The notes below the pieces were generated by a model. It made no database searches. It saw nothing but the letters and a program-made list of their open reading frames with translations, and was not told the DNA's origin. Positions 8-19,416 of a stretch of 20,234 nucleotides of DNA are shown one piece after another. The translations under genes and the position numbers were made by a program. The stretch spans positions 1 through 20,234 of the forward strand of contig PEWQ01000187.1 in the NCBI GenBank assembly GCA_002780065.1, read 5' to 3'. The DNA comes from Candidatus Hydrogenedentes bacterium CG07_land_8_20_14_0_80_42_17 (GTDB lineage Bacteria > UBA8481). Each line of letters starts with the position of its first letter. Positions within the stretch are counted from its first letter, which is position 1.

Positions 8-1717
8 TTACTCCTGCTTATTTAATAATTTTTCTGGCGGTTCCAGTAATTCAATAAAATTTGTTTCTTCTCCAAGTTTTTTTCCCTGTATTTTCTCTAT
101 TTCTACTTTAGAAATTTCGACCTCCGGTCCATATTCAAAACCTGCCATTATCTTTTCCCAATCCGGATAATCTCCTTGAATCACTTCTATATCTTCCAAT
201 TCATCCAGGAAATTTGTATCTTCATCACCGGTAGGTTCCGGGATTTCTATTAGTAACTCAGGAGTAAACAATACCTGTGGTTTCCTTTTGGGAGGCAGAT
301 CATCTTCAATTCCAAACAAATCTCCCTGGATAATATCTTTTTTGACTTTTGCTCCTACTATATCCCATAACCATTGATGATTAAGTTTTTCATGGTCGAT
401 AACTGCACAAAATTCCTGAGTATCCTCTCCCCGGGCATTGAGCCGCAAACCCCTTCCGATTACCTGTTGACCATATACTCTGGAAGAGAATTTTCTTAAA
501 AGTAAAATTACACAAACCTCAGGAACATCCCAGCCTTCTCTTAACATCAATACACTTACAACAGCATCATACGGACTATCCTTTTTCCCAAGCTTTCTTG
601 CTTCCTTACGGTCTTTTTCATCAGAGTCTTCAGTAACCAGAAGAGTTTTTATTCCAAATTCTTTTTCCAACATGCTTTTTGCAGCTTCCCCGTCTTTTAT
701 ACATATTGCAACAACAAAAAGTATAGGTTTATATTTTCCACCCGCTAAAGTTTCAGCCCGTTTTTTTTGCTCATTTAATCTTTCCAAAGCAATCTGTATT
801 TGTTTTTTCATCGGGTCAGGGTCAGTTACCCATTGAGTAGCAGTCAAACCGGACTCAATTTTTTGAAATTCCTGATCCATCTCATCTATGGTTCTTTTTT
901 CATCAGTTTCAGGATTAGTATAAGTCAGCTGGACAAAACTTATCTTGGGCTGATAAACCACCACACTTTTTATTATAGGCGGAACTTCGGCCTGAGCATC
1001 TGAAATTGAATATTCATAAATCATTTTTGAATCAGGCGTTTTCCCATCGGCCCTTTCAGGTGTTGCAGTTGTATCCAGCCTGAATTTTACTTTCTTAGAT
1101 AACAGGCGCAGGACACTGTCATATTCAGGTGCAGGAGTATTATGCGCTTCATCATTGAAAATTGCTATATCCGTAATATATTTCATAAGATATACTAAAT
1201 TTCTTTCCCCGTTAATGTTTGAAGGATAAAGCTGATGTATATTTCCTAATATAATTCCGTTTTCAAGAATTCCCTGGGGAGACGCTCCCGGTTCCATAAT
1301 ATGCAAGCCCATTTCATTTGTATAATGTTCATAACCTGCTGGGAAAAATTCAAATTTTCTAAATACAGTTGCATTATTAAAGTCATCTTCCAATCGGTCC
1401 CGCACAATTGTATTGGGACATAACACCATGAATTTGTTTATATTGTGACAGGTTTTAAGCCATGCCATTATTGCTCCTATTATTGCAGTTTTACCGCCGC
1501 CTGTTACTATATTTAATAATACATTCCTCATCTGCAATAATTCGTAAGAATAAACAACTCTGAAAACCGATTCTTTTTGATGATTCCACAATTTACACGG
1601 AGCTTCCTCTCTTTTCAGGTGCTCAAGAAAATCCCTGGTCAATGGCCCCACATCTGAAAAATCAGAATCTTTCCAGTTTCTAAAATCCTGCTCGTATTTT
1701 GCAAAAGAATTATACAT
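8..1717 (-). CDS. Type III restriction Res-like DEAH helicase, short form (569 aa)
   Basis: This is a superfamily 2 helicase/translocase of the type III restriction Res kind, predicted to use ATP to translocate on DNA for the neighbouring methyltransferase system. Visible motifs in order are Walker A TGGGKT (residues 72-77), DEAH (189-192), TATP (217-220), REGWDVP (393-399) and QQVIGRGLR (417-425), so both RecA-like lobes are present. Typical Res subunits are roughly 850-1000 aa and carry a C-terminal PD-(D/E)XK nuclease. This protein stops at 569 aa, about 140 residues after motif VI, and I see no nuclease motif. Its ATG overlaps the stop codon of the ATPase upstream by one base (TAATG), suggesting translational coupling. 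A nuclease could be a separate gene left of the window, could be supplied by another subunit, or could have been lost. The helicase assignment is secure; a restriction role is inferred from the neighbours. Confidence 0.88.
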   Translation of the reverse strand: MYNSFAKYEQDFRNWKDSDFSDVGPLTRDFLEHLKREEAPCKLWNHQKESVFRVVYSYELLQMRNVLLNIVTGGGKTAIIGAIMAWLKTCHNINKFMVLCPNTIVRDRLEDDFNNATVFRKFEFFPAGYEHYTNEMGLHIMEPGASPQGILENGIILGNIHQLYPSNINGERNLVYLMKYITDIAIFNDEAHNTPAPEYDSVLRLLSKKVKFRLDTTATPERADGKTPDSKMIYEYSISDAQAEVPPIIKSVVVYQPKISFVQLTYTNPETDEKRTIDEMDQEFQKIESGLTATQWVTDPDPMKKQIQIALERLNEQKKRAETLAGGKYKPILFVVAICIKDGEAAKSMLEKEFGIKTLLVTEDSDEKDRKEARKLGKKDSPYDAVVSVLMLREGWDVPEVCVILLLRKFSSRVYGQQVIGRGLRLNARGEDTQEFCAVIDHEKLNHQWLWDIVGAKVKKDIIQGDLFGIEDDLPPKRKPQVLFTPELLIEIPEPTGDEDTNFLDELEDIEVIQGDYPDWEKIMAGFEYGPEVEISKVEIEKIQGKKLGEETNFIELLEPPEKLLNKQE

Positions 1718-2907
1718 TACTTACTTCTTTCTTTCCTTATAATAGGTTCAAATCTCATATATAACCTGAATAACTCATTAGCAAATAAATACTCTCCATA
1801 TTTTTCTCCACTTGATAAAACATTTATTTTTTTCATTTTTTGTAAAAAATTATTAAATACTTTTTTCTCAGAATCATTTAATTTCTTTCCGATTTTTTCT
1901 TTTTGGAAAGTCATGCCGACTTCACTAGTAGCAATTTTTTCAAGAATTGTTCTATATTTCTCACTTTTGATTGCCTTATATACTTGCCTGTCAAGATACT
2001 TTTCTCCCACAATTGTTGCAGCCATTAGAATACCTTTTTTTGCATCTTCTTCAGTAATTATATTATCTTCATCTGTCCAAAATATCGCATCTCCAACTTC
2101 ATGTAAAAGCATAGGGAGTCCGCCAGAATATTGATAAAGCATATTTAATACGGAATCTTCAATTTTAATTCCTTCTTTATTAAAAATTGTCTTATAAAAA
2201 TTAATTGTTTCATTTTTATCCATCGGTGCTATTTCAATTATATTGAAAATTCTTGCAATAGACTGTTGCACACTAATCATTTCCTCTCTACGCTCCGGCA
2301 CTCCGCACAACAAAAGCATTACAGGTAAAGGATTCTGGCTTGTTGCAATTTCATCTACAAAACTTTTTAAAAAATTGGCAAATTTTTCTTCTTTTGCTAA
2401 ACCGTTAATATCATCTAATATTAAAATTATTCCTTTTTTCTCACTCTTTATTTTATCAAAGATATTTCTCATAAGAGGTATAAAATTATCAACAATACTT
2501 TTAAGTTCTTTCTCATCCGCATCAAACTGAACTGTCACGCCAAACAATCCAACTTCTTTTACATAATTACTGAACATGGATTTTATTTTATCAAATAAGG
2601 GATTTTGAATATTTTCTTTTAAAATTCTATCAATAATTCTCTTAATCATTTCCTCAATAGAATTAACTCCTCCTAAAATCACATGAACTCCGACCATTGA
2701 TAAATCTTTTTCAACCAAATATTTTACAAATGAAGCCAAAGAACTCTTTCCTATACCTCTTTCACCGCAAAGAAAAACATTTTCTTGTTTGCCCAATGAT
2801 ACTTGTTTTGCCGCTCTCATTATTTTCTCAATTTCATTTATTCTTCCGACAAAAAATTCTATAGGTACTGGCCTTCCTGGAGTAAAAGGACTTCTTTCTT
2901 TCATCAC
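1717..2907 (-). CDS. AAA+/Orc1-Cdc6-like ATPase between mod and res (396 aa)
   Basis: This is a predicted P-loop ATPase of the AAA+/STAND group. Motifs are FVGR near the N-terminus (19-22), Walker A GERGIGKSS (48-56) and Walker B with two acidic residues in ILILDDING (about 162-169). A sensor-like strand LPVMLLLCGVPE (194-205) follows, then SGGLPMLLHE (261-270), which resembles Orc1/Cdc6 and MarR-linked ATPases. The C-terminal ~100 residues are charged and could form a winged helix. The start is GTG at 2907, with an ideal Shine-Dalgarno octamer 6 nt upstream; an ATG directly after it (2904) is the alternative. It begins 1 bp after the methyltransferase stop and overlaps the helicase start by 1 bp, so all three are surely co-translated. 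An ATPase is not part of a classical two-subunit type III system. Its role (DNA sensing, loading or regulation) is unknown. Confidence 0.82.
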   Translation of the reverse strand: MMKERSPFTPGRPVPIEFFVGRINEIEKIMRAAKQVSLGKQENVFLCGERGIGKSSLASFVKYLVEKDLSMVGVHVILGGVNSIEEMIKRIIDRILKENIQNPLFDKIKSMFSNYVKEVGLFGVTVQFDADEKELKSIVDNFIPLMRNIFDKIKSEKKGIILILDDINGLAKEEKFANFLKSFVDEIATSQNPLPVMLLLCGVPERREEMISVQQSIARIFNIIEIAPMDKNETINFYKTIFNKEGIKIEDSVLNMLYQYSGGLPMLLHEVGDAIFWTDEDNIITEEDAKKGILMAATIVGEKYLDRQVYKAIKSEKYRTILEKIATSEVGMTFQKEKIGKKLNDSEKKVFNNFLQKMKKINVLSSGEKYGEYLFANELFRLYMRFEPIIRKERSK

Positions 2908-2908
2908 T

Positions 2909-4810
2909 TTATTTCACCTCCAATTCCAATACTGATGTCTTTTCTCCGCCCTGGTCATCCTGAATAGAACAAGCAATAGTATATGGACCTTCTTTCGGGA
3001 ATTCATATTCAACTGTTAAAATTGGTTTTCCAGTGGACTTGTCTCTTAAAAAAGCATAGCCCTCGGTTGATGAAAACTTTTCCGTAAAATTAAAATCCCA
3101 TTGCAGATTTGCAATAACCCCATCCTTATTCAAGCTCACTGTATCAGAAATATCAAATTTATATTTAAGTTTTTCTATTCTCTCTATCTTGATTTTCACA
3201 TCAGGCGGTTGGACGAAACTTAGCAAACTGCCATAATCCTTATGTTTTGTTATTATGTGTTCCCGGAAATCATTTGATTCTAATCTGATTAAAGAAAGCC
3301 TGACAAAATCTATTCTCTTATTCTCCCTGGCTGCAAGTATTTCCGCGGCTCTTTTAGCATCAGGGGAAAAATTCCAGGCCAGCATTGTGCCGAAATTAGT
3401 TTTTTTGTCTTTGAAGATTGCCTGTGAAAATTTCACTACATCATCTTTGATTATTTTAGTTCTTCTGGAAGGTTCTCCCACATAAAGAGGCACACCAGCT
3501 CTTAAACCATGAATATTTGGAAAAATATTTTCCGGCTTACCGCCAAATGCTTTTACAACAAATTCCCTGAATTCAGCATCAGACAGGTTTTCTAAGTTCG
3601 GTATTTCATATATTCCCCAATGCTCAACAGTAAAATCAGGCACAGGAAATAAACTCCCAATTTTTTCCTCAACACATCTTACAAGGCGATCAGAAGTTAC
3701 AGAAACAGCAATCCTGGACTGGTCTGAACCAAGCCACCTGCGGTTGAGTTCTTGCGCTGCAACTAAAGTAGTTCCTCCACCACAGAAAAAATCGGCTACC
3801 ACTCCGTCTTTAGGACACAATGCAGTAATAATTCTTTGTAATAAAGATTCTGGTTTTTGCGTAGGATAACCAATACGCTCAGGATCTTTTTGTTGTAAGT
3901 TATTAATATCTAACCATAAATCTGACCATACATCTGTTGGGAGGACAGGATCATCATCATAATACTTATATATTTTCCCATTACTTTTAATGGTTCTATA
4001 TACACGCCCATCAGAATCAATATTTTTCTTAAGATTGTTCCATTTGTCTAAAGTAGTTCTACAAGTTGCACACTCATTTCGTGGTAAACCAATAGATTTT
4101 TCATCAAAATACCAGTTCTTGCCTTTTGAATACCATAATAGAGTATAATGTTTTCTTGGAAAAAAATGTTTTGCTCTTCCACCAGTATCAGCAAACCAGA
4201 TTATTTCATTTTTGAAATTATCAATCCCAAATATTTTATCTAATTCTACTTTCGCATAATGGACTGCATGCCAATCTAAATGTAAAATTAAATTCCCAGT
4301 ATCTTTTAATAGCCGTTTCATTTCATATAGCCGGGCATTGAGCCAGATTAAATATCCCGGGATTCCGCCTTCCCAGATGTCTGAAAAGGAACGAACCTCA
4401 TTTTTATCGCCAAATATTACATTATAATTCCTGCCTGAAAAAAAAGGCGGGTCAATATATATCAAATCAATTGACTTGGAAGGCAGTTGCCTCATAACAT
4501 ACAGATTATCTCCGAAAAACAAGCGGTTAGCGCCTTTCGGAAATAACTCTTTTAAGCTCTGGTCTTTTTTATTGTTTTCTAAAAACTCTTTATTGTGTCC
4601 GAACTCAATTCTTTTTACTTCCTGGAAGGGAAGCAATATCCGGGGATAGGAATGTTCAAATTTTGTTACCTTTGTTTCCCGGGGTTTTGTCTCAATCTCC
4701 CAGCCCAAAGGAGCTTCATCAATGGGGACAGAACCAAACCTGGCCGGGATTTTATAAAATTCCGGTTGCTTTGGTATCTCAATTTCTATATTATTTAATT
4801 TTTCATTCAT
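2909..4810 (-). CDS. Beta-class site-specific DNA methyltransferase (Mod-like) with C-terminal extension (633 aa)
   Basis: This is an S-adenosylmethionine-dependent amino-DNA methyltransferase (N6-adenine or N4-cytosine). Catalytic motif IV, DPPF (120-123, in LIYIDPPFFSG), precedes the SAM-binding motif ADFFCGGGTTLV (339-350), which is the beta-class order used by type III Mod proteins. YPTQKP (315-320) lies between them, as is usual. Residues 125-335 should hold the target recognition region. The part after ~390 is not needed for methylation. Residues ~400-530 have an alternating pattern that I read as possibly Mrr-like, and ~545-633 looks like an Ig/PKD-type beta sandwich ending in alternating hydrophobics. 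It is first in a three-gene operon and has its own promoter at 4863-4890. The ATG at 4810 has only a weak AAAAAG-type ribosome site. The methyltransferase call is firm; target sequence and role of the extension are unknown. Confidence 0.9.
   Translation of the reverse strand: MNEKLNNIEIEIPKQPEFYKIPARFGSVPIDEAPLGWEIETKPRETKVTKFEHSYPRILLPFQEVKRIEFGHNKEFLENNKKDQSLKELFPKGANRLFFGDNLYVMRQLPSKSIDLIYIDPPFFSGRNYNVIFGDKNEVRSFSDIWEGGIPGYLIWLNARLYEMKRLLKDTGNLILHLDWHAVHYAKVELDKIFGIDNFKNEIIWFADTGGRAKHFFPRKHYTLLWYSKGKNWYFDEKSIGLPRNECATCRTTLDKWNNLKKNIDSDGRVYRTIKSNGKIYKYYDDDPVLPTDVWSDLWLDINNLQQKDPERIGYPTQKPESLLQRIITALCPKDGVVADFFCGGGTTLVAAQELNRRWLGSDQSRIAVSVTSDRLVRCVEEKIGSLFPVPDFTVEHWGIYEIPNLENLSDAEFREFVVKAFGGKPENIFPNIHGLRAGVPLYVGEPSRRTKIIKDDVVKFSQAIFKDKKTNFGTMLAWNFSPDAKRAAEILAARENKRIDFVRLSLIRLESNDFREHIITKHKDYGSLLSFVQPPDVKIKIERIEKLKYKFDISDTVSLNKDGVIANLQWDFNFTEKFSSTEGYAFLRDKSTGKPILTVEYEFPKEGPYTIACSIQDDQGGEKTSVLELEVK
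2914..2921 (-). promoter_or_regulatory. Ribosome binding site deciding the ATPase start
   Basis: On the minus strand this reads GGAGGTGA, fully complementary to the canonical 16S 3' end. It sits inside the last codons of the methyltransferase gene, 6 nt before GTG 2907 and 9 nt before ATG 2904. Counting from GGAGG the distances are 9 and 12 nt, which favours the GTG. Confidence 0.7.
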
Positions 4811-4862
4811 CTTTTTAATACTCTAAACATTTCTTTTCAAAGTGGAGGTATATATTTGTTTA

Positions 4863-4890
4863 ATTATACAAAAAATATATTATAATGCAA
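4863..4890 (-). promoter_or_regulatory. Predicted sigma70-type promoter for the methyltransferase operon
   Basis: On the minus strand a -35 TTGCAT (4885-4890) is followed after 16 bp by a perfect -10 TATAAT (4863-4868). Transcription would start near 4856, giving a leader of about 46 nt before the ATG at 4810. The leader contains ACCTCC, an anti-Shine-Dalgarno-like stretch, which may be chance in such AT-rich DNA. No operator-like repeat is obvious around the promoter. Confidence 0.55.
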
Positions 4891-5111
4891 AATAAATTTT
4901 GTCCGCGGTTTATAGGGAAAAGAGAGCTTACTAGAAGTCTTATTACGCTACACTTACAATTTTTACTATTAAGTAACAATTCGCCGAATCGGCGGACTGA
5001 CAACCTTATAACGTATAATTACAATACAGCCCGCATAGTTAGCGAGCACGCTATTGTTTTCAGATATAGAAAATATAAACAATTCCCCGGTTCAAGGACG
5101 AAGTGCAACAA

Positions 5112-5133
5112 TCAGGGGGGCTAGCCCCCCTGA
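5112..5133. repeat. Perfect 22-bp GC-rich palindrome
   Basis: The sequence reads TCA, six G, CTAG, six C, TGA and equals its own reverse complement. It stands out strongly in AT-rich surroundings. It is not a normal intrinsic terminator, because a run of A follows it on the plus strand and no T-run follows it in either reading direction. It lies about 60 bp upstream of the inferred IS30 transposase start, so it could be a terminal part of the element or its insertion target. IS30-family elements are known to prefer palindromic targets. Confidence 0.85.
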
Positions 5134-5195
5134 AAAAATCGGCTCTATCCAATAGAGTGTTTTGGTCAATAAACCACTTACGAAGAAGTCGACCC

Positions 5196-5621
5196 ATAGG
5201 CAATAATAACACGCGCGGCAGAAAAACATACCGCCGTTTGAGTTTTGAAAAGAGGGAAGAAATCGCGATCGGGCTGTAACGCGGCGAATCGAAGGCGGCT
5301 ATCGCCTCACGTTTGGGACGAAATCGCTCCAGCATCGGCAGAGAGATTAAGCGGAATCTTCCCCCTCAAAAAAACGTAAGGTATCGTGCCAATCGAGCGC
5401 AGAAGCGCTTTGAAGAGCGGAGCGCTTTTTGTCACGCCAGAGATTGGATCAAGAACTCCGAGACACGGCAATACGTGGAAACTAAACTCAAGGAGGGCTG
5501 GACGCCGGAAATAATCGCAAGTCGGTTGCCGTTGGACGATTCTTTGCTTTCGACGAACTACGAGTCCATCTATCAGTAGATTTGCACCGAACGCCGAACG
5601 ACCGAATACATGCAAACGTAG
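5196..5621 (+). pseudogene. Decayed IS30-family transposase, N-terminal fragment
   Basis: Reading one frame through the stops gives an IS30-like N-terminus. It runs RRLSFEKREEIAIGL, stop, RGESKAAIASRLGRNRSS, then IGREIKRN, then WTPEIIASRL and NYESIYQ, a second stop, and ICTERR. The first half is the helix-turn-helix typical of IS30 transposases, and the (W)xPExIxxRL...ESIY block is the next conserved segment. Stops are TAA 5277-5279 and TAG 5577-5579, the latter where IS30 proteins usually continue with an aromatic residue. The codon at 5196 is ATA where an ATG start would fit. A third in-frame stop is at 5619-5621, and the DDE catalytic domain is absent because the next gene's end lies at 5643. 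It is therefore a non-functional relic. The family call rests on recognised motifs; exact ends are unknown. Confidence 0.75.
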
Positions 5622-5642
5622 AAACGCAATATATCCTTATCT

Positions 5643-6983
5643 CTAAAGTGAAATTGTTATCGCTCTTCGGCCCGGTGCTTCTAACTTAATCGATGTAATA
5701 GGTTCTGAAAAAGAGAACCATCTCCGCTCCTCAAAACCTGAATGTAAAATATTCGGCGCATCTTCAACTAAACCTGAAACCCATGTTCCTCTTGAATATC
5801 CTTTTACGCTCATGCCTGAAATGTTTATATCTTCAGAACCGAAATTTGTCAGTCCAACTCTCAAACGAAATTCATTTCTGCGAGCGGCTGAATAAACTGT
5901 TGCTCGAACTCCGTCGGAAAAAACAGGCTGTTTCATAGGAAACGGTTTTTCTGCCGGAAAACCATTCTGCATATCGACGCGCAGTATTTCGTCTCTGTAA
6001 GGCACAATAAGTTCAATCGATTCTAACCGAGGAACTTCCACAAACCTCACTTCAACCCTAACTGCTTTTCCAGGTTCTACAATTCTTGTAAGAGGCAGAG
6101 AGACACTATACAAAGTTTTACCGCTCCCTGTATAAAGCCTCATGCTTGACGGATTTGGAATAGACGCTGTCTCTCTCGTTACGTTTCTGAAAACTACCTT
6201 TGCGATAAAATTAGAACCTGTCTCGGAAGAACTAATATTTGTCTTCTCTACCGTGACTTCCCACATAACGTTCATTGATTTGTCGGTAAAGAGCACCTTT
6301 TTGTTCAACAAATTCCATTGCGAAGGTTCTGCCGGTGAAATCCATTCGACTTTACCGTTGCCTAACGGATAATGAATCTCGATACCCGTCGGAATGTCAT
6401 CCCTGTTCACCCCAAAGATCAAAACTACATCCAACGGTTCGGAATCAAGTTTCATCGGTTTATCAATCAAAGGTTCAATTCTGTCATGAATTTTTATCGG
6501 TAAATGTCTATTGCCTTTGTCATCCAATAAAACGATATTTTCGCGCAGAATCAAAGTTCTCGTAATCGGTTCAAGTATCGAGGCAGGCACAGCAGTATCA
6601 CGGTGAGCAAATGTATCCTTGTCCGCACGTGTATCTGAATTTAGGAGCCTCAATCTCCTAAATTCATCGTTCTCGATTCTCATTCGAAGCAGAATCCATT
6701 TCTCGTTTCGACTCGGCCATGTATTTGCAACTCCGCTTAAAAGTTCCTCTACAGATTCAACCTGCCACGAAACAGGACCTATTATTATACCTGTATTAGG
6801 ACGAGCAATTTCCTTTCCTGAAATATCCGACATTGAAACCGTGTCTGAAGAATCTCCGACTAATCCAATTCCTTCCCACACGGATTTGTCCTCTTGAGAA
6901 GGCTGAACAAACTGAGTCGACTCTCCGCAAGATAAAATAAAAAATGCAATCAATATAAAGTGAATTTTCGCAAAGAGGTTCAT
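5643..6983 (-). CDS. Predicted lipoprotein with repeated Ig-like domains (446 aa)
   Basis: Function is not recognised. The N-terminus is a signal peptide with a lipobox, ILSC, placing the lipidated Cys at residue 19, so it should be anchored to a membrane on the outer side of the cytoplasmic membrane. The rest is beta-rich. About three similar blocks (roughly 50-215, 220-340, 350-446) each alternate hydrophobics around phrases such as WILLRMRIEND, FIAKVVFRNVT and FRLRVGLTNFG. This is the look of DUF4352-like or other Ig-fold domains, and no catalytic motif is visible. It is the last gene of a five-gene minus-strand run, starting 42 bp after the propeller protein. No clear terminator follows its stop; transcription would run into the IS30 relic. 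The ATG at 6983 has only a distant GAGGG as ribosome site. Confidence 0.72.
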   Translation of the reverse strand: MNLFAKIHFILIAFFILSCGESTQFVQPSQEDKSVWEGIGLVGDSSDTVSMSDISGKEIARPNTGIIIGPVSWQVESVEELLSGVANTWPSRNEKWILLRMRIENDEFRRLRLLNSDTRADKDTFAHRDTAVPASILEPITRTLILRENIVLLDDKGNRHLPIKIHDRIEPLIDKPMKLDSEPLDVVLIFGVNRDDIPTGIEIHYPLGNGKVEWISPAEPSQWNLLNKKVLFTDKSMNVMWEVTVEKTNISSSETGSNFIAKVVFRNVTRETASIPNPSSMRLYTGSGKTLYSVSLPLTRIVEPGKAVRVEVRFVEVPRLESIELIVPYRDEILRVDMQNGFPAEKPFPMKQPVFSDGVRATVYSAARRNEFRLRVGLTNFGSEDINISGMSVKGYSRGTWVSGLVEDAPNILHSGFEERRWFSFSEPITSIKLEAPGRRAITISL

Positions 6984-7025
6984 TCTTTCAAGCCCTCACT
7001 CTCCGCTTCCATTGCACTTTTAAAC

Positions 7026-8594
7026 TTATGCTTCGAGCACATACTTAAAATATTTTTCATCCTCAATTGCCTGATTGGACCATGCTTCAATTTCTCGCAG
7101 TTCATTTGAAAGCGATTCGTTCTCTTTTCCATCTGATTCTTTGAGAAGTCTTCGAATCTCCGCAAGCCTCGATGTCTTCTCGACGCGCTCTTCTTGAATC
7201 TTTTGCTGTCTCATTCTCAACCATGAATCAATCTCTTCAAATTCCTCATAAATACTTTTTGTTTCCAAAGCCAATTCTTCGTCTTTACGTAATGCCGATT
7301 GTCGCGTAACTTCATTGATACGTTCAGTAATAACTTTTAATTTTTTCGCGTATTCAGCAATGTCAGGAGAAAGTTTCTCAATTGGAGGAGTCATCTTTTT
7401 TCTATGACTTTTTCTTTTTTCTTTCACTAAAGTTTTCGAAGATGATGATCTAGACATTTTGACGGCAATAAGAATTGCAATCAAAATCAAAAAGCCGATT
7501 CCTAATATCAGCGAAAGGCTTTTCCTCGATGATAATTTATTTTCAAGCGTTGAAAGTTCTTTTCGAAGTCTGGAATATTCATCCGTCTTTTCGACAGTTT
7601 CTGCGAGCATTGGAGGCGGTGAAGACTTTGAATCGGAAGTGAGCCACTCCGGTTCTTCCGCTCCAATTGCAAAGACCATCATGCCTCCGCCTTCTGTCCC
7701 GCAATAAATTTTCTTTCCATCGTTAGAAGCTAAAGTCCGTATAGGAAAGTTTCCGAATCTCGATGAATAAACTTCTTTCCAACTCACGCGGTTCAATTCC
7801 GTTGTGGCCTCCGCAGAAAGAATTCTTCCTCGAATAGTCCCGATTAAAATCTTTTCTCCGTTAGCTGAAAACGTCATAGCAGTCACTGCATCGCCTGCAA
7901 ACGGCAATTCGAGTTTTACAGGTATTGCAAAAGGACGGTCATCGCAAATATCTACCGTGCCGTCACTTCTTAAACCCATCCAGAAATTTTTCGAAGTTGA
8001 AACTAGAGCTTTATATGTCGAACCTTCCCTAATCAGCGACCATGAATCCGGCTGAGAGTAACGATATAATTTTCCCGGAGTTGCAACTAAGATTCCTTTC
8101 TTATCTGAAAATAGCGCTTGAATATTCTGTTGTTCATCAGGTAAAGCTATAATTCTGGAGCCGCCGCCCGGTATAAGTTCAATCAATCCGTTCCACGAGC
8201 CTGCATAAATATTCCCATTAAATTGCGTAATCGATGAAATGAACGAATCTTTTATAGAGCTTGAGACGTAAATATTAGAAAATTTATTCCCGTCAAAACG
8301 GTACAATCCATTCTCTGACCCAACATAAAAATTCTTTTGGAAATACTCAATCGAGCTCACAAATCCATTGAAGCTCTTAAAAAGATTTGGAGTTTTTCCA
8401 TCTTCAAGGCTTGCAATACCGAATGGAGTTCCAAAAATTACTTTTGAATCTGCAAGCGCAATCGCAGTCACACGGTTCATCCACGACGCTTCAATCTTTG
8501 TATCAACCTCTGTAATTCTGTTTTGAGCCGCAGAAGCAGACGAAGAAAAAATAAAGATAAAAGATATAATACAGAAATAAGATAATTTTTTCAT
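7026..8594 (-). CDS. Secreted-propeller, single-TM, cytoplasmic coiled-coil protein (522 aa)
   Basis: I read this as a membrane protein with an outer sensor-like part. The open frame reaches ATG 8627, but ATG 8594 is preferred. It has AGGTGA 10 nt upstream and starts directly with a signal peptide (MKKLSYF...SASA). Residues ~25-310 contain short repeats of the kind found in two-component-regulator propellers (YVGSENGLYRFDG, YAGSWNGLIEL, ILIGTIRGRI, YCGTEGGGMMV). A coiled-coil heptad stretch (~340-358) leads into one transmembrane segment LSLILGIGFLILIAILIAV (~360-378) and a basic patch. A charged coiled-coil tail of about 130 residues follows, rich in Glu, Arg and Lys. There is no histidine kinase, receiver or GGDEF motif, so any signalling would be by partner proteins. 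It follows the M23 gene by 43 bp. Function is inferred only. Confidence 0.7.
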   Translation of the reverse strand: MKKLSYFCIISFIFIFSSSASAAQNRITEVDTKIEASWMNRVTAIALADSKVIFGTPFGIASLEDGKTPNLFKSFNGFVSSIEYFQKNFYVGSENGLYRFDGNKFSNIYVSSSIKDSFISSITQFNGNIYAGSWNGLIELIPGGGSRIIALPDEQQNIQALFSDKKGILVATPGKLYRYSQPDSWSLIREGSTYKALVSTSKNFWMGLRSDGTVDICDDRPFAIPVKLELPFAGDAVTAMTFSANGEKILIGTIRGRILSAEATTELNRVSWKEVYSSRFGNFPIRTLASNDGKKIYCGTEGGGMMVFAIGAEEPEWLTSDSKSSPPPMLAETVEKTDEYSRLRKELSTLENKLSSRKSLSLILGIGFLILIAILIAVKMSRSSSSKTLVKEKRKSHRKKMTPPIEKLSPDIAEYAKKLKVITERINEVTRQSALRKDEELALETKSIYEEFEEIDSWLRMRQQKIQEERVEKTSRLAEIRRLLKESDGKENESLSNELREIEAWSNQAIEDEKYFKYVLEA

Positions 8595-8637
8595 TTTTGC
8601 AATCTCACCTTGCATTTCACCCGCCATTCATCATTCA

Positions 8638-10389
8638 TCATCTCAAAGTCAGCCTCTTCTCTATTTTATTGCCTGCTCTATCCTCTGCCGAAATAATTAT
8701 CTCTTTGGAATTTAAATTCAGCAATTCCTCCGGTTCCGGAATAAATCCTCTTCTGTCAATATCATATCTGCCTTTTATCTCTCGTTGCAATCCTTCTTCC
8801 AGTTTGTAAGCGAATACTTTGTCACCTGCAACTCCGCTGAAATCATCTTCGATATTTATTACTCCATTATTGTTAAGAGAAATTATTGGCGGCAAAGTAT
8901 CTCTAACAGAAACGACAGGAGCAAGAAAATCAAGCTCAGCCGAACGTGTATTGCCTGTTCTCGATGAATCCAGCCAGCGCCACATGCCATTCGAGAAGAC
9001 CGCCAATCCGTTTGCATAGCGCGGAGCAGGAATTGATATTTGCATTTTTGATGAAGGAAACCCGTACGGCCCAATATGCAAAATCTCGCCTACAGCCTGA
9101 GGCGGAGGTGAAATAGCTCCACCTAGAAAAGAATAAATTTTATTCGCACTCGAGCCTTTCAGTGCCGCTCCGCCGGCAAGCATTACGTTTACATTTTCTG
9201 AAGGGTAAGAAACTTTCACTTTAATTCCTTCAACAAAAGAGTCTCTGTCTGTCACTCTAATATTTTTTCCATTCCTTCGCAGCATAACTCCGCCTCGAGT
9301 TATGTATTCGGTTTTTCCACTCTGTTCTCCAAGCAACGATTCTTTTCCTTGAAGAATAACAAAAGAAAAAGACGTCTTGTTCCCATTTGCATCGTAAGCA
9401 GTAATTCGTATATTGTTGGCTCCTCTTCCGATCTTCAAGAAACCTGCTCCAGACACAATCTCAGCGGAGCCATCAGGCGCTGTTAAATCATAGGTATAAT
9501 TCGTAGGGCTAAATCCGGAGAGAAACGGATCATAAACATTGACAGCCTCATTTATCCGTTCGAACGAAAACGAGTTCATGTCTATTCTGCTGTGATTATG
9601 TCCGTTCACTGAAAGCGTCAAGCGGTCGAGTCCCATGACTCCTCCAAGTTTGCCGTCTTCATCCCTAGCCTTCACCAAAATCCGAACCCTGCCTTGCGCA
9701 CTTATTCTGACTCTGCGTCTCGAATGATTCAGAACTGTCTGCCAGCCTGAACCTTCTACAGTCGATGTTTCGTCAGCAGGCTCAATCAATACCGCTTCAA
9801 TCACTGGCGGCACCGAATCATTCATCTCAATTATTCCACGCCTCATCGGATTCAATGCTCGGTCACTTCTGTCTCTCAACTCAAAATGGAGATGAGGAAG
9901 TCCAATCCCTGCTTCACCGTTGTAGCCAATGACCTCGCCTTTTCTAACATAAACTTTTTTCTGCGGATATGACTCCATCGTATTTCCATCCATGTCTCCG
10001 CCCAACTCATGAGCTTTTCGAGGAAGTAAAACAGCTATCTTCGGAGCAAATCTTTTAAGATGAGCGTAGACTATTCTTCGATTGTTTTGCGAATCGATAT
10101 AGACAACATTTCCGTAACCGCCGGCGCTCGAGCGCACTCGATAGACCCATCCGTTGTAAACTGCCCGAACCGGAATTCCTGTTCGACCAAATGTTGCCAG
10201 ATCAATTCCTGAATGCAATCTGCCCGGGCGATATTCCCCGAAACTTGCCGAAAATGCGCGGCGATCAGTGTCCAGAGGAAAAACATTTTCGGCATAAACA
10301 AAATTTATCGACAAAATAAAAGTAATTAGAAAAGAGATGCAAACAACAAAATATCTTTTTGAAAAATCAAAATAATTTGAAAAATTCAT
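8638..10389 (-). CDS. M23-family (LytM) metallopeptidase with beta-sandwich C-terminus (583 aa)
   Basis: This is a predicted zinc endopeptidase cleaving peptidoglycan cross-bridges or a related envelope substrate. After a signal peptide (hydrophobic core near residues 13-33, ending FVYA) the LytM domain shows HSGID (59-63), AHL (109-111) and PHLHFELRD (165-173). The zinc ligands (His, Asp, His) and both catalytic His are therefore intact and the enzyme should be active. Between AHL and the final HxH there is an extra loop of about 25 residues compared with compact M23 domains. The following ~390 residues look like Ig-like domains (for example NNIRITAYDANGNKTSFSFVI and ISAEDRAGNKIEKRL), a common architecture in secreted M23 proteins. 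ATG 10389 is taken as start because it begins the signal peptide. An in-frame TTG at 10407 overlapping the upstream stop is an alternative. Confidence 0.88.
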   Translation of the reverse strand: MNFSNYFDFSKRYFVVCISFLITFILSINFVYAENVFPLDTDRRAFSASFGEYRPGRLHSGIDLATFGRTGIPVRAVYNGWVYRVRSSAGGYGNVVYIDSQNNRRIVYAHLKRFAPKIAVLLPRKAHELGGDMDGNTMESYPQKKVYVRKGEVIGYNGEAGIGLPHLHFELRDRSDRALNPMRRGIIEMNDSVPPVIEAVLIEPADETSTVEGSGWQTVLNHSRRRVRISAQGRVRILVKARDEDGKLGGVMGLDRLTLSVNGHNHSRIDMNSFSFERINEAVNVYDPFLSGFSPTNYTYDLTAPDGSAEIVSGAGFLKIGRGANNIRITAYDANGNKTSFSFVILQGKESLLGEQSGKTEYITRGGVMLRRNGKNIRVTDRDSFVEGIKVKVSYPSENVNVMLAGGAALKGSSANKIYSFLGGAISPPPQAVGEILHIGPYGFPSSKMQISIPAPRYANGLAVFSNGMWRWLDSSRTGNTRSAELDFLAPVVSVRDTLPPIISLNNNGVINIEDDFSGVAGDKVFAYKLEEGLQREIKGRYDIDRRGFIPEPEELLNLNSKEIIISAEDRAGNKIEKRLTLR

Positions 10390-10876: not shown

Positions 10877-12589
10877 TCACTCATTATGCGGAATCTCGTA
10901 GCTTGAGCCTCCTATGAATTCACGAATCGGAGAGGTTGACGGCAGTAAAGAAAGGTCAGGAAATTCTGCTACAGTTTCCATAAGGCTTGCAACCCGAATT
11001 CCTCTGATGTAAGGATCCAGTCTGCCCTCTTCTCTCAGCCGCTCGATTACTCTTCTCGAAGGAAAAATCTTTCCTGCTGTCGCTTTCAAAATAGAAAGCT
11101 CATACGGAAGTCCCGAGTTGACAACTGCATCAGTGCTGAAGATGTATGGAATAATGTGCTTCAGCTCCCCCTTGCGGACATAAGGCCAATGCGCAAGCGT
11201 CGTCTCCGCAGGATATCCTCGATGCTGACTGTCTCGAATCATTCTCTTCAACAGCCTGACATCGGCCCACTTTGTAAATTCTCCATTCGTATTTCTCAAA
11301 AGGTTCATCGATTCAATATAAATCTTGAACTTATTTCTGTTAGGAACACTCGAAGTTAATTTGCGATAGAGTCCGTGCAGGCAGTCAATCAATATCACTT
11401 CATCTTCCTTAACATTAAATGGTATGTACTTATCCCTCTTTCCGAGTTTGAAATTATAATGCGGCATCTGAATCTCGCGGCCCGACAAAAGATCCGAGAG
11501 ATTCTGATTCAGAAGTTCCATGTCGATAGCTTCCGGCATCTCAAAATCGTAATCGCCGTATTCATCTTTAGGCTGTTTCGTCAGATCAAAGAAGTAATTG
11601 TCAACGTTAAGCTGTTTTAATTTCAAACCCTCTTTGGCTAACTCCTGACCGATAATCACAGTAGTTGTCGTTTTATTCGATGACGACGGCCCCGCTATGA
11701 TAACTACTCTGATATCTTTTTTGCGCTCGATAATAGATTTTGCAACCGATCGAACATCATCGATATAACGCTTTTCTCCGGCGTTTATGAGGTCTTCGAT
11801 ATTTTTTCCATGCCTTCCGAATATCCAATCGTTCAGAGCAAAAACCGTCTCGCATTCATGCTCGATATTCCATTGAATTGTGCGATTGACTAATTCGCGG
11901 TGAATGCCGTTATTAGTAAATTGGATCGGAGAAATTTCGCCGTTGTGAATTTTTCGTCTGCCTTCCCGGTAAATCATAAATCCTTCCGCGATATCAACCT
12001 CTCCGATATCCTTCATCTCCTTCTCGATCATGTCCTGAATGCATTCTCTGCTCGGATAAAGGAGTTCTTTAGATATTTTTTTCTTCGACAAAGAGGAAGT
12101 TTCGTCAACAAGAAAATCGACAATTTCCTTCTTCTCATCAAAATTTAATTTTGGAAAAAGTCCTTCTGTATAATGAGGATCAACCTTAGAGTTTTCAATC
12201 TCCGATAAAATAGAGCTCTTCAAATCTTCAATTTTGTCCGCAACCTCTTCGCCGAGTGCGAGCGAATCGCGAAAAGTTTCAAGCAGAGCATAAGTCAAAC
12301 GTTCAGTCGCCTTAGCGTTACGCAGTCGTTCCTTTCTTTCGTTTGGCGCGTAATTCAAAAACTTTACTATGAAATCCGATTTAAGCCATGAGAGGTCGTA
12401 AAACTCTCTGTAGACACGCGCCGCTACTTTTTCCGCAAACTTGCGCGCTCTGAGGTCATGCGACCATTTCAAAGGCCCCTTGATATCCTCCATAGTTGCC
12501 CGCAAAGAACGCGTGATGCGTTCAATGTCAAAATCCACAATATCGCCATTCTTGCTTATTATTTTTAAAACACTATTTGGTAAACTCAT
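10877..12589 (-). CDS. ATP-cone plus uridine kinase/phosphoribulokinase-like protein (570 aa)
   Basis: The C-terminal half is a P-loop kinase of the uridine kinase/phosphoribulokinase family, likely phosphorylating a nucleoside or sugar. It has Walker A GPSSSNKTT (300-308), a DNYFFD substrate/metal motif (330-335) and a Walker-B-like VILIDCLHGL (398-407). The N-terminus (about 6-100) resembles the ATP-cone regulatory domain of ribonucleotide reductases and NrdR (IISKNGDIVDFDIERITRSLRA is its opening). A helix AEGFMIYREGRRKI (201-214) recalls the region after ATP cones. This suggests a kinase controlled by adenine nucleotide binding. Oddly, the last Gly of the Walker A loop is Asn. It heads a five-gene minus-strand run although the rest are envelope genes. 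A good promoter sits so close that the mRNA may be leaderless. The exact substrate is unknown. Confidence 0.8.
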   Translation of the reverse strand: MSLPNSVLKIISKNGDIVDFDIERITRSLRATMEDIKGPLKWSHDLRARKFAEKVAARVYREFYDLSWLKSDFIVKFLNYAPNERKERLRNAKATERLTYALLETFRDSLALGEEVADKIEDLKSSILSEIENSKVDPHYTEGLFPKLNFDEKKEIVDFLVDETSSLSKKKISKELLYPSRECIQDMIEKEMKDIGEVDIAEGFMIYREGRRKIHNGEISPIQFTNNGIHRELVNRTIQWNIEHECETVFALNDWIFGRHGKNIEDLINAGEKRYIDDVRSVAKSIIERKKDIRVVIIAGPSSSNKTTTTVIIGQELAKEGLKLKQLNVDNYFFDLTKQPKDEYGDYDFEMPEAIDMELLNQNLSDLLSGREIQMPHYNFKLGKRDKYIPFNVKEDEVILIDCLHGLYRKLTSSVPNRNKFKIYIESMNLLRNTNGEFTKWADVRLLKRMIRDSQHRGYPAETTLAHWPYVRKGELKHIIPYIFSTDAVVNSGLPYELSILKATAGKIFPSRRVIERLREEGRLDPYIRGIRVASLMETVAEFPDLSLLPSTSPIREFIGGSSYEIPHNE

Positions 12590-14603: not shown

Positions 14604-16085
14604 ATGATTGACAAAATCGATTTATCCTTGAGTATCTCGAAAGAGGAATACAAAAAGGAAATAAGTGTTCTTCAAAGTCGGTTGCGAATTCTTCAGCAGG
14701 AATTACGAGTTGCGAAGATTCCGGTAATTATCGTTGTCGAGGGCTGGGACGCCGCCGGTAAAGGTCCTGCAATATCTTCATTCATCGATCAGCTGGATCC
14801 GCGCGGATATAAAGTTAATCCTACATACGCTCCAAATCTCGAAGAGGCCATGCGGCCATTTCTATGGCGTTTCTGGCTTCAGCTTCCAGGATACGGTCAG
14901 TTTGCAATCTTCGACAGGTCGTGGTACGGCCGTGTGCTAGTCGAAAGAATGGACAAACTCTGTTCGAAAAAAGAATGGCGAAGAGGTTACGATGAGATCA
15001 ATCAATTTGAAAGAGCCATCTCAGACGACGGAGCAATCATTCTGAAATTTTTCATGCACATCTCAAAAAAAGAGCAGAAGAAGCGCCTCAAAAAAATGGA
15101 GGCTGACAAATATTCAAAGTGGAAGGTTGAAAAGAAAGATTGGGAGAACAACAAACGTTATGACGAATGGGTGAAGTTTTACGACGAGATGTTTGAAAAG
15201 ACCTCTACGACTTATGCTCCTTGGATAATTGTTGAAGCTGAAGACTCAAGATACAGCCGTGTAAAGATGCTTTCAACCGCTATTGTGGCAATAGAGGAAA
15301 AATTAAAGATAGTCGCAGAGCATAAGATTCAGCCGGCAATGATAGCGGCATTGAAGATCAATCCCAAGTCTGCACTCGACCAGGCTGATCTTTCTTTGAA
15401 ACTCGATCGCGAGGAATACAAGATTCAGCTTGCGAAGTATCAGGCGCGTTTCAGAGAACTGGCATTCAAACTTTTTGAGCGAAGAATTCCGTGCATGATC
15501 GGATATGAAGGTTGGGATGCCGCGGGCAAGGGCGGCAATATTAGAAGGCTCATCTCATCGCTCGATCCTCGATCGTTCAGCGTAATACCGATTGCGGCTC
15601 CGCAAGGCGATGAGAAGACTCACAATTATCTCTGGCGTTTTTGGAAGCATTTTCCAAAAGCCGGGCACATTGCGATATTCGACAGGACGTGGTATGGAAG
15701 AGTTCTTGTGGAGCGAATCGAAGGTTTCTGCCGCGAGGATGAATGGCAAAGAGCTTATCAGGAGATCAATGAATTCGAGGCTCAACTTGCAAATTTCGGA
15801 ACAATCATCTGCAAGTTTTGGATACATATTTCAAAAGAGGAACAGCTCAAGAGATTCGAAGAGCGTCAGAATACCGAACACAAATTGTACAAAATTACAG
15901 AAGAGGACTGGCGCAATCGGGAGAAATGGGACCTGTATGAAGCCGCAGTCGGTGAGATGCTTCTTCGAACATCGACCACTTACGCTCCGTGGACAATCGT
16001 AGAAGGCAACGACAAACTCTGGTCGCGAATTAGAACTCTAAAAACTGTGTGCGAAGCAATCTCGAAGAGATTAAAGAAAAAGTAA
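14604..16085 (+). CDS. pap: Polyphosphate:AMP phosphotransferase, two-domain PPK2 (493 aa)
   Basis: This is a class II PPK2 enzyme, predicted to transfer phosphate from polyphosphate to AMP, forming ADP in the cytoplasm. Two homologous PPK2 domains follow one another. The first has Walker A GWDAAGKG (47-54) and FDRSWYGRVLVER (103-115). The second has GWDAAGKG (303-310) and FDRTWYGRVLVER (359-371). Each is followed by the WRFWxxxP-type lead and by the lid region with HISKEEQ. The double-domain layout and length match the Acinetobacter johnsonii Pap type (about 475 aa) rather than single-domain PPK2 that make GTP or ATP. Both P-loops look intact, so sequence alone does not show which domain is catalytic. 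The gene is transcribed alone, converging with the cysteine desulfurase only 3 bp away. Confidence 0.93.
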   Translation: MIDKIDLSLSISKEEYKKEISVLQSRLRILQQELRVAKIPVIIVVEGWDAAGKGPAISSFIDQLDPRGYKVNPTYAPNLEEAMRPFLWRFWLQLPGYGQFAIFDRSWYGRVLVERMDKLCSKKEWRRGYDEINQFERAISDDGAIILKFFMHISKKEQKKRLKKMEADKYSKWKVEKKDWENNKRYDEWVKFYDEMFEKTSTTYAPWIIVEAEDSRYSRVKMLSTAIVAIEEKLKIVAEHKIQPAMIAALKINPKSALDQADLSLKLDREEYKIQLAKYQARFRELAFKLFERRIPCMIGYEGWDAAGKGGNIRRLISSLDPRSFSVIPIAAPQGDEKTHNYLWRFWKHFPKAGHIAIFDRTWYGRVLVERIEGFCREDEWQRAYQEINEFEAQLANFGTIICKFWIHISKEEQLKRFEERQNTEHKLYKITEEDWRNREKWDLYEAAVGEMLLRTSTTYAPWTIVEGNDKLWSRIRTLKTVCEAISKRLKKK

Positions 16086-17280: not shown

Positions 17281-19416
17281 TCATCCGGCATAGCAAAAGC
17301 CGAATCGCCACGGGCGATGAAACCAACCGTAAGTAGGCGACCATGCGTAAAAAAAGAAGCCTTCTTTCGGAGCACCGTCGATTCTCATAACATTCATTCG
17401 TATTCCCTTTTTCAAAAAGTCTGCGTTTATTCCAAGTTGCTTTAACGGAATTTTCAGTTCAATGCTCCAGCTCTTGGCTCCGCGATGCGCCGCCGCAGTA
17501 AGTCCGTCGCAATTCCATCTCTTTGAATTTTCAAAATCTATATGCGAACCATATTCTACAATCGCATCGTAAAGAGTTGCGTTCGGATTAATCTCAAATT
17601 CGGCATATCTTCTGCCAAGGCTTTCAGTATCCAGAAATAATTCAACTGCATCCTCGCGCCACAAATCTGAATCTCTTTCAAAAATCGAAGAAGCAATCGA
17701 AGTATCCTGGCATTCAGCCGCAAAATATAAAAAGTTTTCGGTATATCCTATTCCAAAATGCGTATTATTTTCCGGCACAGGCGGGGCGCCTGTGCCTCCG
17801 TTTGCATAAACCATCGAATATTTCAAATCGATGTCAGGCACTCCATCTATGCGCGGCTCCGACCTCAAATATGAAATTGTAATTACAGAGTGATTACCTG
17901 AAATTATCTTTTCAGTCGGTATTTTGACTCTATGAAAAGTATCAGGATGAATAAATGCAATATAAAATATTACGCATACTAAAATCGCAATCGAATTTAT
18001 TCTCACTTCCTCGAATATTCGCGGATAAACCAATATCATCAGAATCAAAAGACTGAAGAATAAAATCACTTCCGTCTTCGAGCAACCGGTCACGATTCTT
18101 TCTCCAACTGCGCTATTGTAATTTTCATGTGGAGAAGTAAGCGAATATATCCTTTCCACCGAGTCCTGATTCCATCTCGATTCGGTCGCGTCCAACAGTT
18201 CTCCGAAATAATCCTCGAGAATAAAGTTTTCTTTTAGCGCCACAAAAAGATTCTTCTTCCACTCGTCTCGCTTTGGAGAATCGCCTGCACTTGATTTCTT
18301 TCTGTGCTGTAAGTAGTATGAATCCGTCAGCGGTTTTCCCCAATCAGTATCTTTGCCGTCCAACCAAAACTCCGCCCTTTGCAAAGATTCAGCTCCGAAA
18401 AGATTCACTGCATCATCTTTTCCGTAATACAAAATGTAATCATTAAGAGCTCTCTGAAAAAGTTTCTCTCGATTCATATTGCTGATAAGCGGCATGAAAG
18501 AAGAATCAGAAATGGAAAGGCGAATTAAATCATGATACGTGTAAGCAATATAGCGGTCGCGTCTAAAAAGATGAACACGAAACTCATTCAGCTTCGGATA
18601 TTTTTCAGCAGGAAAATCGCGAAGAAAAGTATCGTAATCGAATAATGAAGGCATTCTGATTCTTCGAATCGCATCTTCTGAAATAATCACTTTTGTAAAT
18701 AGTTTTTCAGGCGAATTCGTTCTCGTCTTGAAGATGTAGCCTCTAGGGTCTCTAACTTCAATTCCATATTCCTGAATTAAAACTGTAAACCCAAGGAGAA
18801 GAAGAAATGCAAATATTCCCGCAACACGAGTCGATATTGCTCTTCTGTCCGAAGAACTCCTTTCCGTCTTCTCAAACAATCTGAATATCACGAGAGGCAG
18901 ACCTACGGCGATAATATTCCAAAAGATATCGATAAGTTCACCGTGACGATTAGGAAGAATATGCTGAATCGTCTCATCGAGCGTTCCGATTGCCACTCCG
19001 GTAAAAAGCGAATTTGGAAATACAGCCTTTGAAATGATCGCCGAACTCCATCCTTTGTATAGCAGATATGAAAGAAATCCATATTCGAGAAAATGAATCT
19101 TTTCCGTCGGCACTTCCATTATTGAAACGAGGTATCCGTAAACTCCTGCGACCGCAATTATTAATATCAATCGGAGAGGCTTTCGAGTAATCGGGTTCGA
19201 AATAAGTTTATAGAAAAGTATGAGCAAAATAATTCCGAGTATCACTGCCGAAATATGTCCCAGCATTTTATATCCGTAATCGGTTTCAAAAGTTTTATTG
19301 ATTGTCGAAGTCATCCAGCCGGTCATATCCGGGGCATAAGGAAGAGTCAGAAAAATTAAAGCTGTCCAAACAGCAGCTGACAAAAACCAAAAAATTATTT
19401 TCGAATTAGAATTCAT
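17281..19416 (-). CDS. VanZ-like membrane domain fused to a CBM9-like domain (711 aa)
   Basis: The N-terminal third is multi-spanning. Hydrophobic segments lie near 8-26, 50-70, 82-100, 108-120, 135-145, 160-178 and 198-216. The VanZ-like signatures are TEKIHFLEYGFLSYLLY (104-120) and LDETIQHILPNRHGELID (146-163). A soluble region (about 220-445) is followed by two more hydrophobic stretches (about 450-475 and 483-500). Residues ~513-711 look like a CBM9/DOMON-like carbohydrate-binding sandwich, with RIDGVPD, a DAVELFLDTES block (the CBM9 core) and WSIELKIPLKQLG. The protein would put the binding domain outside the membrane. A short palindromic repeat (17774-17796) is translated as GGTGAPPVP near 539-547. 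It starts 12 bp after the sulfatase gene. A link to glycan handling is inference. Confidence 0.72.
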   Translation of the reverse strand: MNSNSKIIFWFLSAAVWTALIFLTLPYAPDMTGWMTSTINKTFETDYGYKMLGHISAVILGIILLILFYKLISNPITRKPLRLILIIAVAGVYGYLVSIMEVPTEKIHFLEYGFLSYLLYKGWSSAIISKAVFPNSLFTGVAIGTLDETIQHILPNRHGELIDIFWNIIAVGLPLVIFRLFEKTERSSSDRRAISTRVAGIFAFLLLLGFTVLIQEYGIEVRDPRGYIFKTRTNSPEKLFTKVIISEDAIRRIRMPSLFDYDTFLRDFPAEKYPKLNEFRVHLFRRDRYIAYTYHDLIRLSISDSSFMPLISNMNREKLFQRALNDYILYYGKDDAVNLFGAESLQRAEFWLDGKDTDWGKPLTDSYYLQHRKKSSAGDSPKRDEWKKNLFVALKENFILEDYFGELLDATESRWNQDSVERIYSLTSPHENYNSAVGERIVTGCSKTEVILFFSLLILMILVYPRIFEEVRINSIAILVCVIFYIAFIHPDTFHRVKIPTEKIISGNHSVITISYLRSEPRIDGVPDIDLKYSMVYANGGTGAPPVPENNTHFGIGYTENFLYFAAECQDTSIASSIFERDSDLWREDAVELFLDTESLGRRYAEFEINPNATLYDAIVEYGSHIDFENSKRWNCDGLTAAAHRGAKSWSIELKIPLKQLGINADFLKKGIRMNVMRIDGAPKEGFFFYAWSPTYGWFHRPWRFGFCYAG
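17774..17796 (-). repeat. Palindromic repeat carried in frame inside the CBM9-like domain
   Basis: GGCACAGGCG and CGCCTGTGCC flank a GGG spacer: a perfect 10-bp inverted repeat far more GC-rich than the surrounding coding sequence. Translated in the gene it gives Gly-Gly-Thr-Gly-Ala-Pro-Pro-Val-Pro, a stretch with no sign of secondary structure that sits in a loop between predicted strands. Confidence 0.7.

Follow-up and report, generated by a model that had tools for sequence, protein, structure and literature searches.

The window analysed here, 20,234 nt in length, is the whole of contig C5 of genome G000 and ends inside a res gene. Open reading frame (ORF) calls together with domain searches placed three tightly packed genes on its minus strand. 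The mod gene (2909..4810) encodes a beta-class DNA methyltransferase of 633 aa (N6_N4_Mtase, E 1.8e-39). It is followed by the GTG-initiated gene of a 396-aa AAA+ ATPase with a C-terminal winged helix (1717..2907; AAA_16, E 6e-12; ATPase_2, E 5e-10) and by res (8..1717), of which the window holds the first ~565 of ~664 aa of an SF2 helicase-like protein (ResIII, E 1.8e-16), its 3′ end being located on contig C170. The mod and ATPase genes are separated by a 1-bp gap (TAA-A-GTG), whereas the ATPase and res genes overlap by 1 bp (TAATG). An earlier sequence-only reading of the window had proposed a beta-class methyltransferase and a Res-like helicase coupled with the ATPase in exactly this manner, and both the domain matches and the junctions bear this out.

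The same reading had assigned a single promoter to the three genes. A weak promoter-like site (TTTGCA-17-TATAAT, 10 of 12 matches) is indeed located upstream of mod on the minus strand (4863..4891). As 25 such sites were observed in the region versus 18.9 expected, which is not clearly above background, one promoter common to the mod-ATPase-res operon is plausible only, although the candidate site is well placed. The ATPase gene has a GC content of 29% and a GC3 of 0.21, compared to 36–37% and 0.29–0.30 for mod and res and a GC content of 42% for the rest of the contig. This base composition appears foreign, although the difference in GC may also be explained in other ways.

In Mod, the DPPF motif IV precedes the FxGxG motif I, as in beta-class enzymes, and the C-terminus is weakly PKD-like. 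The protein shares 39–62% identity with Mod of five other cassettes (described below), while Res shares 41–66% with Res of six other cassettes. Two features by which type III systems are recognized are thus present: the beta-class arrangement of Mod (DPPY/F before FxGxG), with motifs invariant across six cassettes, and conserved SF2 helicase motifs in Res (TGGGKT/S, NDEAH and VIGRGLR-type).

Complete relatives of Res have 664–685 aa, compared to 569 aa for the ORF in the window, the stop of which is located 8 bases from the contig end. Window positions 17–36 are identical to C170:20-1, an exact 20-bp overlap of two contigs of the same genome followed by divergence, and comparison with C170 showed that the differing bases at the contig edge (1..16) create the apparent res stop (8–10). 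C170 extends the res frame by ~100 codons that match the relatives (Res C-terminus at G000:C170:3-317). The next gene on C170 is nuc (C170:320-664), encoding a 118-aa TnsA-like PD-(D/E)XK nuclease, which was recovered by searching the window's own genome with the small protein encoded after res in related loci and is 68% identical to the nuclease of cassette L121. From the overlap, the reading frame and the repeats described below we infer that C170 follows C5. Since the res ORF ends at the contig edge and C170 supplies both its end and nuc, the complete unit would comprise four genes, mod-ATPase-res-nuc. The three genes of the cassette proposed earlier are therefore real, but its res is cut by the contig end and a fourth gene, the nuclease gene, lies on C170.

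The nuclease matches the Pfam TnsA-like endonuclease family (E 1.4e-12), and all its relatives retain the D, E and K residues. A further match is to the C-terminal end of a family of fused Res proteins (profile positions 849–940 of 970). No solved structure was close to the nuclease in sequence. Searches of plasmids yielded no relative of the nuclease, and searches of phages none of Res. In classical type III enzymes the endonuclease is part of the helicase polypeptide, whereas here and in ten relatives it is encoded by a separate gene; hence, we regard the system as a type III-like variant and not as a classical member.

An outer inverted repeat begins just upstream of mod (4889..4990), and its partner (G000:C170:664-764) directly follows the nuclease stop. 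The two copies match at 89% over 102 bp, are inverted relative to the operon and are the only copies of this ~100-bp repeat in the genome, bracketing mod-ATPase-res-nuc. Because the repeats occur only on C5 and C170 and the reading frame and overlap agree, the four genes presumably form one inverted-repeat-bounded cassette. On its outer flank lies a broken IS30-family transposase remnant (5244..5579, plus strand; NF033563, E 4.5e-11, read through with X at an internal stop), which is truncated at profile residue 79 of 267. A second mod-res-nuc cassette, L146, is bracketed by inverted repeats as well (L146:3112-3240 and 8513-8641; 129 nt at 99%, or 188 bp at 96% by BLAST), for which reason inverted-repeat-bounded units may be a route by which such cassettes move. 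The other cassettes tested had no bracketing inverted repeats, some of them having short flanks.

Further genes of the window are mentioned for completeness. The product of 10877–12589 is a fusion of an ATP-cone and a uridine kinase/phosphoribulokinase domain, and that of 17281–19416 a fusion of a VanZ-like membrane domain and a C-terminal CBM9-like domain. A 493-aa protein (14604–16085) looks like a tandem pair of one kinase domain with two GWDAAGKG motifs and, by eye, resembles PPK2-type polyphosphate kinases.

The ATPase possesses a Walker A (GERGIGKSS, 2766–2740) and a Walker B motif (LILDDIN, 2424–2404), both on the minus strand. An AlphaFold2 model built with 67 relatives (pLDDT 89) consists of an AAA+ core and a C-terminal winged helix. 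The highest-scoring solved structures were Aeropyrum ORC2 (1w5t; Z 21.1, rmsd 6.3 over 343 residues) and the archaeal ATPases PABY2304 and SSO1545, the two archaeal ATPase entries scoring Z 21.0 (2qen; rmsd 5.2 over 327 residues) and Z 20.9 (2fna). The match to TnsC (Z 16.8) was below these. Core, Walker motifs and winged helix on the model thus correspond to the Orc1/Cdc6-type AAA+ fold. Identity to Orc1/Cdc6 and the archaeal ATPases is only 12–17%, and the curated orc1/cdc6 model TIGR02928 scores the protein at 29.5 versus a cut-off of 181.3. A sequence search against solved structures returned only a weak match to a TPR protein. Of the designation "Orc/STAND-like" given previously, the Orc part holds on the model, whereas the STAND part does not, as the 396 aa comprise AAA+ and winged helix only, with neither TPR, WD40 or LRR sensor repeats nor an effector, and nSTAND models score below their cut-offs. 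The broader description as a type III-like restriction-modification (R-M) cassette with an extra Orc/Cdc6-fold ATPase agrees with the domains of Mod, Res and ATPase and with the modelled fold.

The same arrangement of Res and a separate nuclease recurred in ten further cassettes, of which five come from genomes (L130, L131, L132, L133 and L134) and five from IMG/VR contigs (L121, L143, L144, L145 and L146). A scan of the phyla of four cassette genomes plus one larger phylum added none to this number. None of these ten Mod-Res-nuclease cassettes contains the ATPase. Across all loci, with fused, more classical Res included, there were 35 distinct pairs of mod followed by res, and several carry other genes at the position taken by the ATPase in the window and in locus L096. 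In L130 (6968–8290) the intervening genes encode one GIY-YIG protein and one Bro-N protein (PADLOC candidate PDC-S13, E 3e-124); L133 (seen there as L116) has a Ymh/HEPN-type protein, and L135 an MNT nucleotidyltransferase plus HEPN (7385–8102), located before a fused res-nuclease gene. Small ORFs plus HEPN occupy this position in L086, while in L026 (472–3306; genome G064) an NYN-domain protein is placed after the mod end and directly before res. On the basis of these gene orders the mod/res junction is a recurrent insertion slot, with cargo mostly of toxin, HEPN or nuclease types; as it was the ATPase that led to L086 and L096, these two loci do not count as unbiased examples. Two candidates were rejected as slot inserts, L134 due to a shifted res start and L144 because its mod is broken by another insertion (3413–7996), in which a transposase-like protein and two ORFs on the reverse strand are encoded. 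We also observed a recombinase-like gene after nuc in L130 (10675–12087) and an unlinked copy of the ATPase, L003, in genome G064.

A search of genome contigs with the single ATPase protein gave no match, and a profile search in one genome per species then identified 342 relatives in many bacterial phyla and in archaea, the best 80 of which were kept and read. Plasmid matches were below 30% identity, one of them, L327, lying among kinase and hypothetical genes. In 78 of the best 80 relatives the ATPase gene does not adjoin mod or res; the neighbours are diverse, mostly housekeeping genes and often only a few bases away. No neighbour was recurrent, the commonest Pfam families occurring three times among 104 adjacent proteins as counted with a simple ORF caller that left the ATPase ORF unplaced in a few of the 80 loci, whereas the linkage count used all of them. 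The sequence-only reading had set beforehand the absence of linkage in most genomes as the result that would contradict it, and such absence is what prevails among these relatives. What remains of the expected linkage are two loci, L086 and L096, that adjoin both mod and res genes, of distant families. BLAST with Mod and Res of the window did not detect L096 or the distant Res of L086, while profiles built from diverse members found both.

In L096 the order is Mod-ATPase-Res, the ATPase gene lying in between with overlapping reading frames; in L086 it is ATPase-Mod-...-Res. The ATPases of the window, L086 and L096 are 42–52% identical to one another, but outside the motif core the Res proteins of L086 and L096 share only about 21–23% with that of the window, and their Mod proteins 23–34%. 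These Mod/Res pairs have a fused nuclease and belong to type III-like families that are only distantly related. The three R-M-linked ATPases occupy scattered positions on the ATPase tree, where three separate changes are needed. Given the separate changes and the distant Mod/Res proteins, we take this as repeated independent recruitment of the ATPase and not as one inherited trio. As a lead, 2 of 80 relatives beside mod/res exceeds chance by a rough guess (far fewer than one expected); some functional affinity of the ATPase family for R-M operons is therefore likely.

Type III systems are characterized by one-strand methylation and by cleavage ~25 bp from head-to-head sites. Mod reads and methylates the site, Res moves by ATP from unmethylated sites and the nuclease cuts. 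The cassette resembles EcoP15I and EcoPI in its beta-class Mod, its SF2 helicase-like Res and the order of mod and res in the operon, but it differs from them by the AAA+ gene between mod and res and by the separate ~115-aa TnsA-like nuclease in place of the Res C-terminus. In CglI and NgoAVII the nuclease of the R-protein has a phospholipase D fold, unlike the TnsA-like PD-(D/E)XK nuclease here, a distinction made by description. Common to both is that methyltransferase, nuclease and helicase are separate polypeptides, those of CglI and NgoAVII being the M, R and N proteins (PMC4267653). The roles of the type III Mod and Res subunits are given in PMC8259958.

PADLOC contains no model describing the trio; for mod and res the matches are to generic type II/III models, and the ATPase has one weak match only (SngB, E 0.012). 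For BspHIV and Eco86II, an additional ATPase of a different kind encoded beside type III genes has already been published (Murray et al. 2021; PMC8259958), which is the nearest parallel in wording. There, an SF2 helicase-like gene situated 5′ of mod is the extra one; it is co-located in over 500 genomes, and its product was unneeded for methylation and was undetected in the cleaving Eco86II fraction (PMC8259958). The window likewise adds an ATPase gene to mod and res, but has no SF2 helicase-like ATPase 5′ of mod: its Orc/Cdc6-fold AAA+ gene lies 3′ of mod, between mod and res, and its family is rarely linked to R-M genes. In position, the nearest published parallel is PrrC within EcoprrI and the HEPN genes embedded in many R-M operons, accessory effectors proposed to act as second-line defence (PMC3710099, PMC12707154). 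As at those loci an accessory gene lies inside an R-M locus, and HEPN, Ymh and MNT also occur in the relatives' slot; however, the published cases mainly concern HEPN RNases, which in part are accompanied by ABC or GHKL ATPases (PMC3710099, PMC12707154), whereas the cargo of the window is a lone AAA+ ATPase without a visible effector domain.

Taking these observations together, the locus represents a variant of restriction systems already known, not a new machine of three parts. The tight coupling had been interpreted as one machine of three, but this is mostly not supported, given ten sister cassettes without the ATPase and the 78 unlinked relatives. We consider it probable, judging from gene content and order, that the locus is a mobile, split-nuclease, type III-like mod-res-nuc operon that carries an autonomous Orc/Cdc6-fold ATPase as accessory cargo. 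That some type III-like systems instead use the ATPase as a dedicated third subunit, a DNA-bound AAA+ ring sensing recognition or licensing the separate nuclease as TnsC does with TnsA, seems unlikely to us: the tight gene coupling, the recurrence of the order and overlapping ends in L096, the arrangement of L086, the TnsA-like nuclease and the resemblance to TnsC speak for it, whereas the sister cassettes, the fused nucleases beside the two linked ATPases, the many relatives without Mod/Res neighbours and the better fold scores against Orc and archaeal ATPases speak against it. Hardly better, and still improbable, is the idea of a pure hitch-hiker family that settles in any operon, has no defence role and came to lie between mod and res by accident. 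The diverse, closely spaced, mostly housekeeping neighbours and the deviating base composition would fit such a family, but the two relatives beside type III-like genes and the toxin, HEPN or nuclease types of most other slot cargo would not.

An appreciably more speculative combination would make this unnamed, widespread family an autonomous defence or genome-guarding factor that repeatedly plugs into the mod/res slot and switches the TnsA-like nuclease, so that restriction would reuse a pairing like that of TnsA and TnsC. The gene set of the window might, finally, be complete as it stands, a Mod-ATPase-helicase system that has no nuclease and acts by silencing instead of cutting, since its Res ORF ends at 569 aa without a nuclease domain. 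This has become very improbable and is largely refuted by the contig end, by C170 with its 20-bp overlap, in-frame res continuation and nuclease gene, after which the view of Res as complete without a nuclease domain was abandoned, and by flanking inverted repeats found only on C5 and C170.

In the favoured reading of a restriction operon with accessory ATPase cargo, Mod would recognize and methylate the site, and Res would be the ATP-driven motor that leaves unmethylated sites and recruits the small nuclease, joining as a separate subunit, to cut. A free-standing ATPase gene would have inserted cleanly at the mod/res junction, which takes up cargo. Because sister cassettes lack it and neither Mod nor Res is encoded near most of its relatives, the ATPase is probably unneeded for methylation, translocation and cutting; it would be co-expressed with the R-M genes as an Orc-like accessory that binds DNA and is switched by ATP, and might act alone, as a DNA- or stress-sensing switch, a second-line defence or a stability gene, like PrrC beside EcoprrI. 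For this group of systems, the cassette would represent split-nuclease type III-like restriction that is assayable as three separate proteins, with a mod/res junction that works as a cargo slot, and it draws attention to an uncharacterised AAA+ family of 342 relatives, counted with one genome per species, that has no fixed neighbours.
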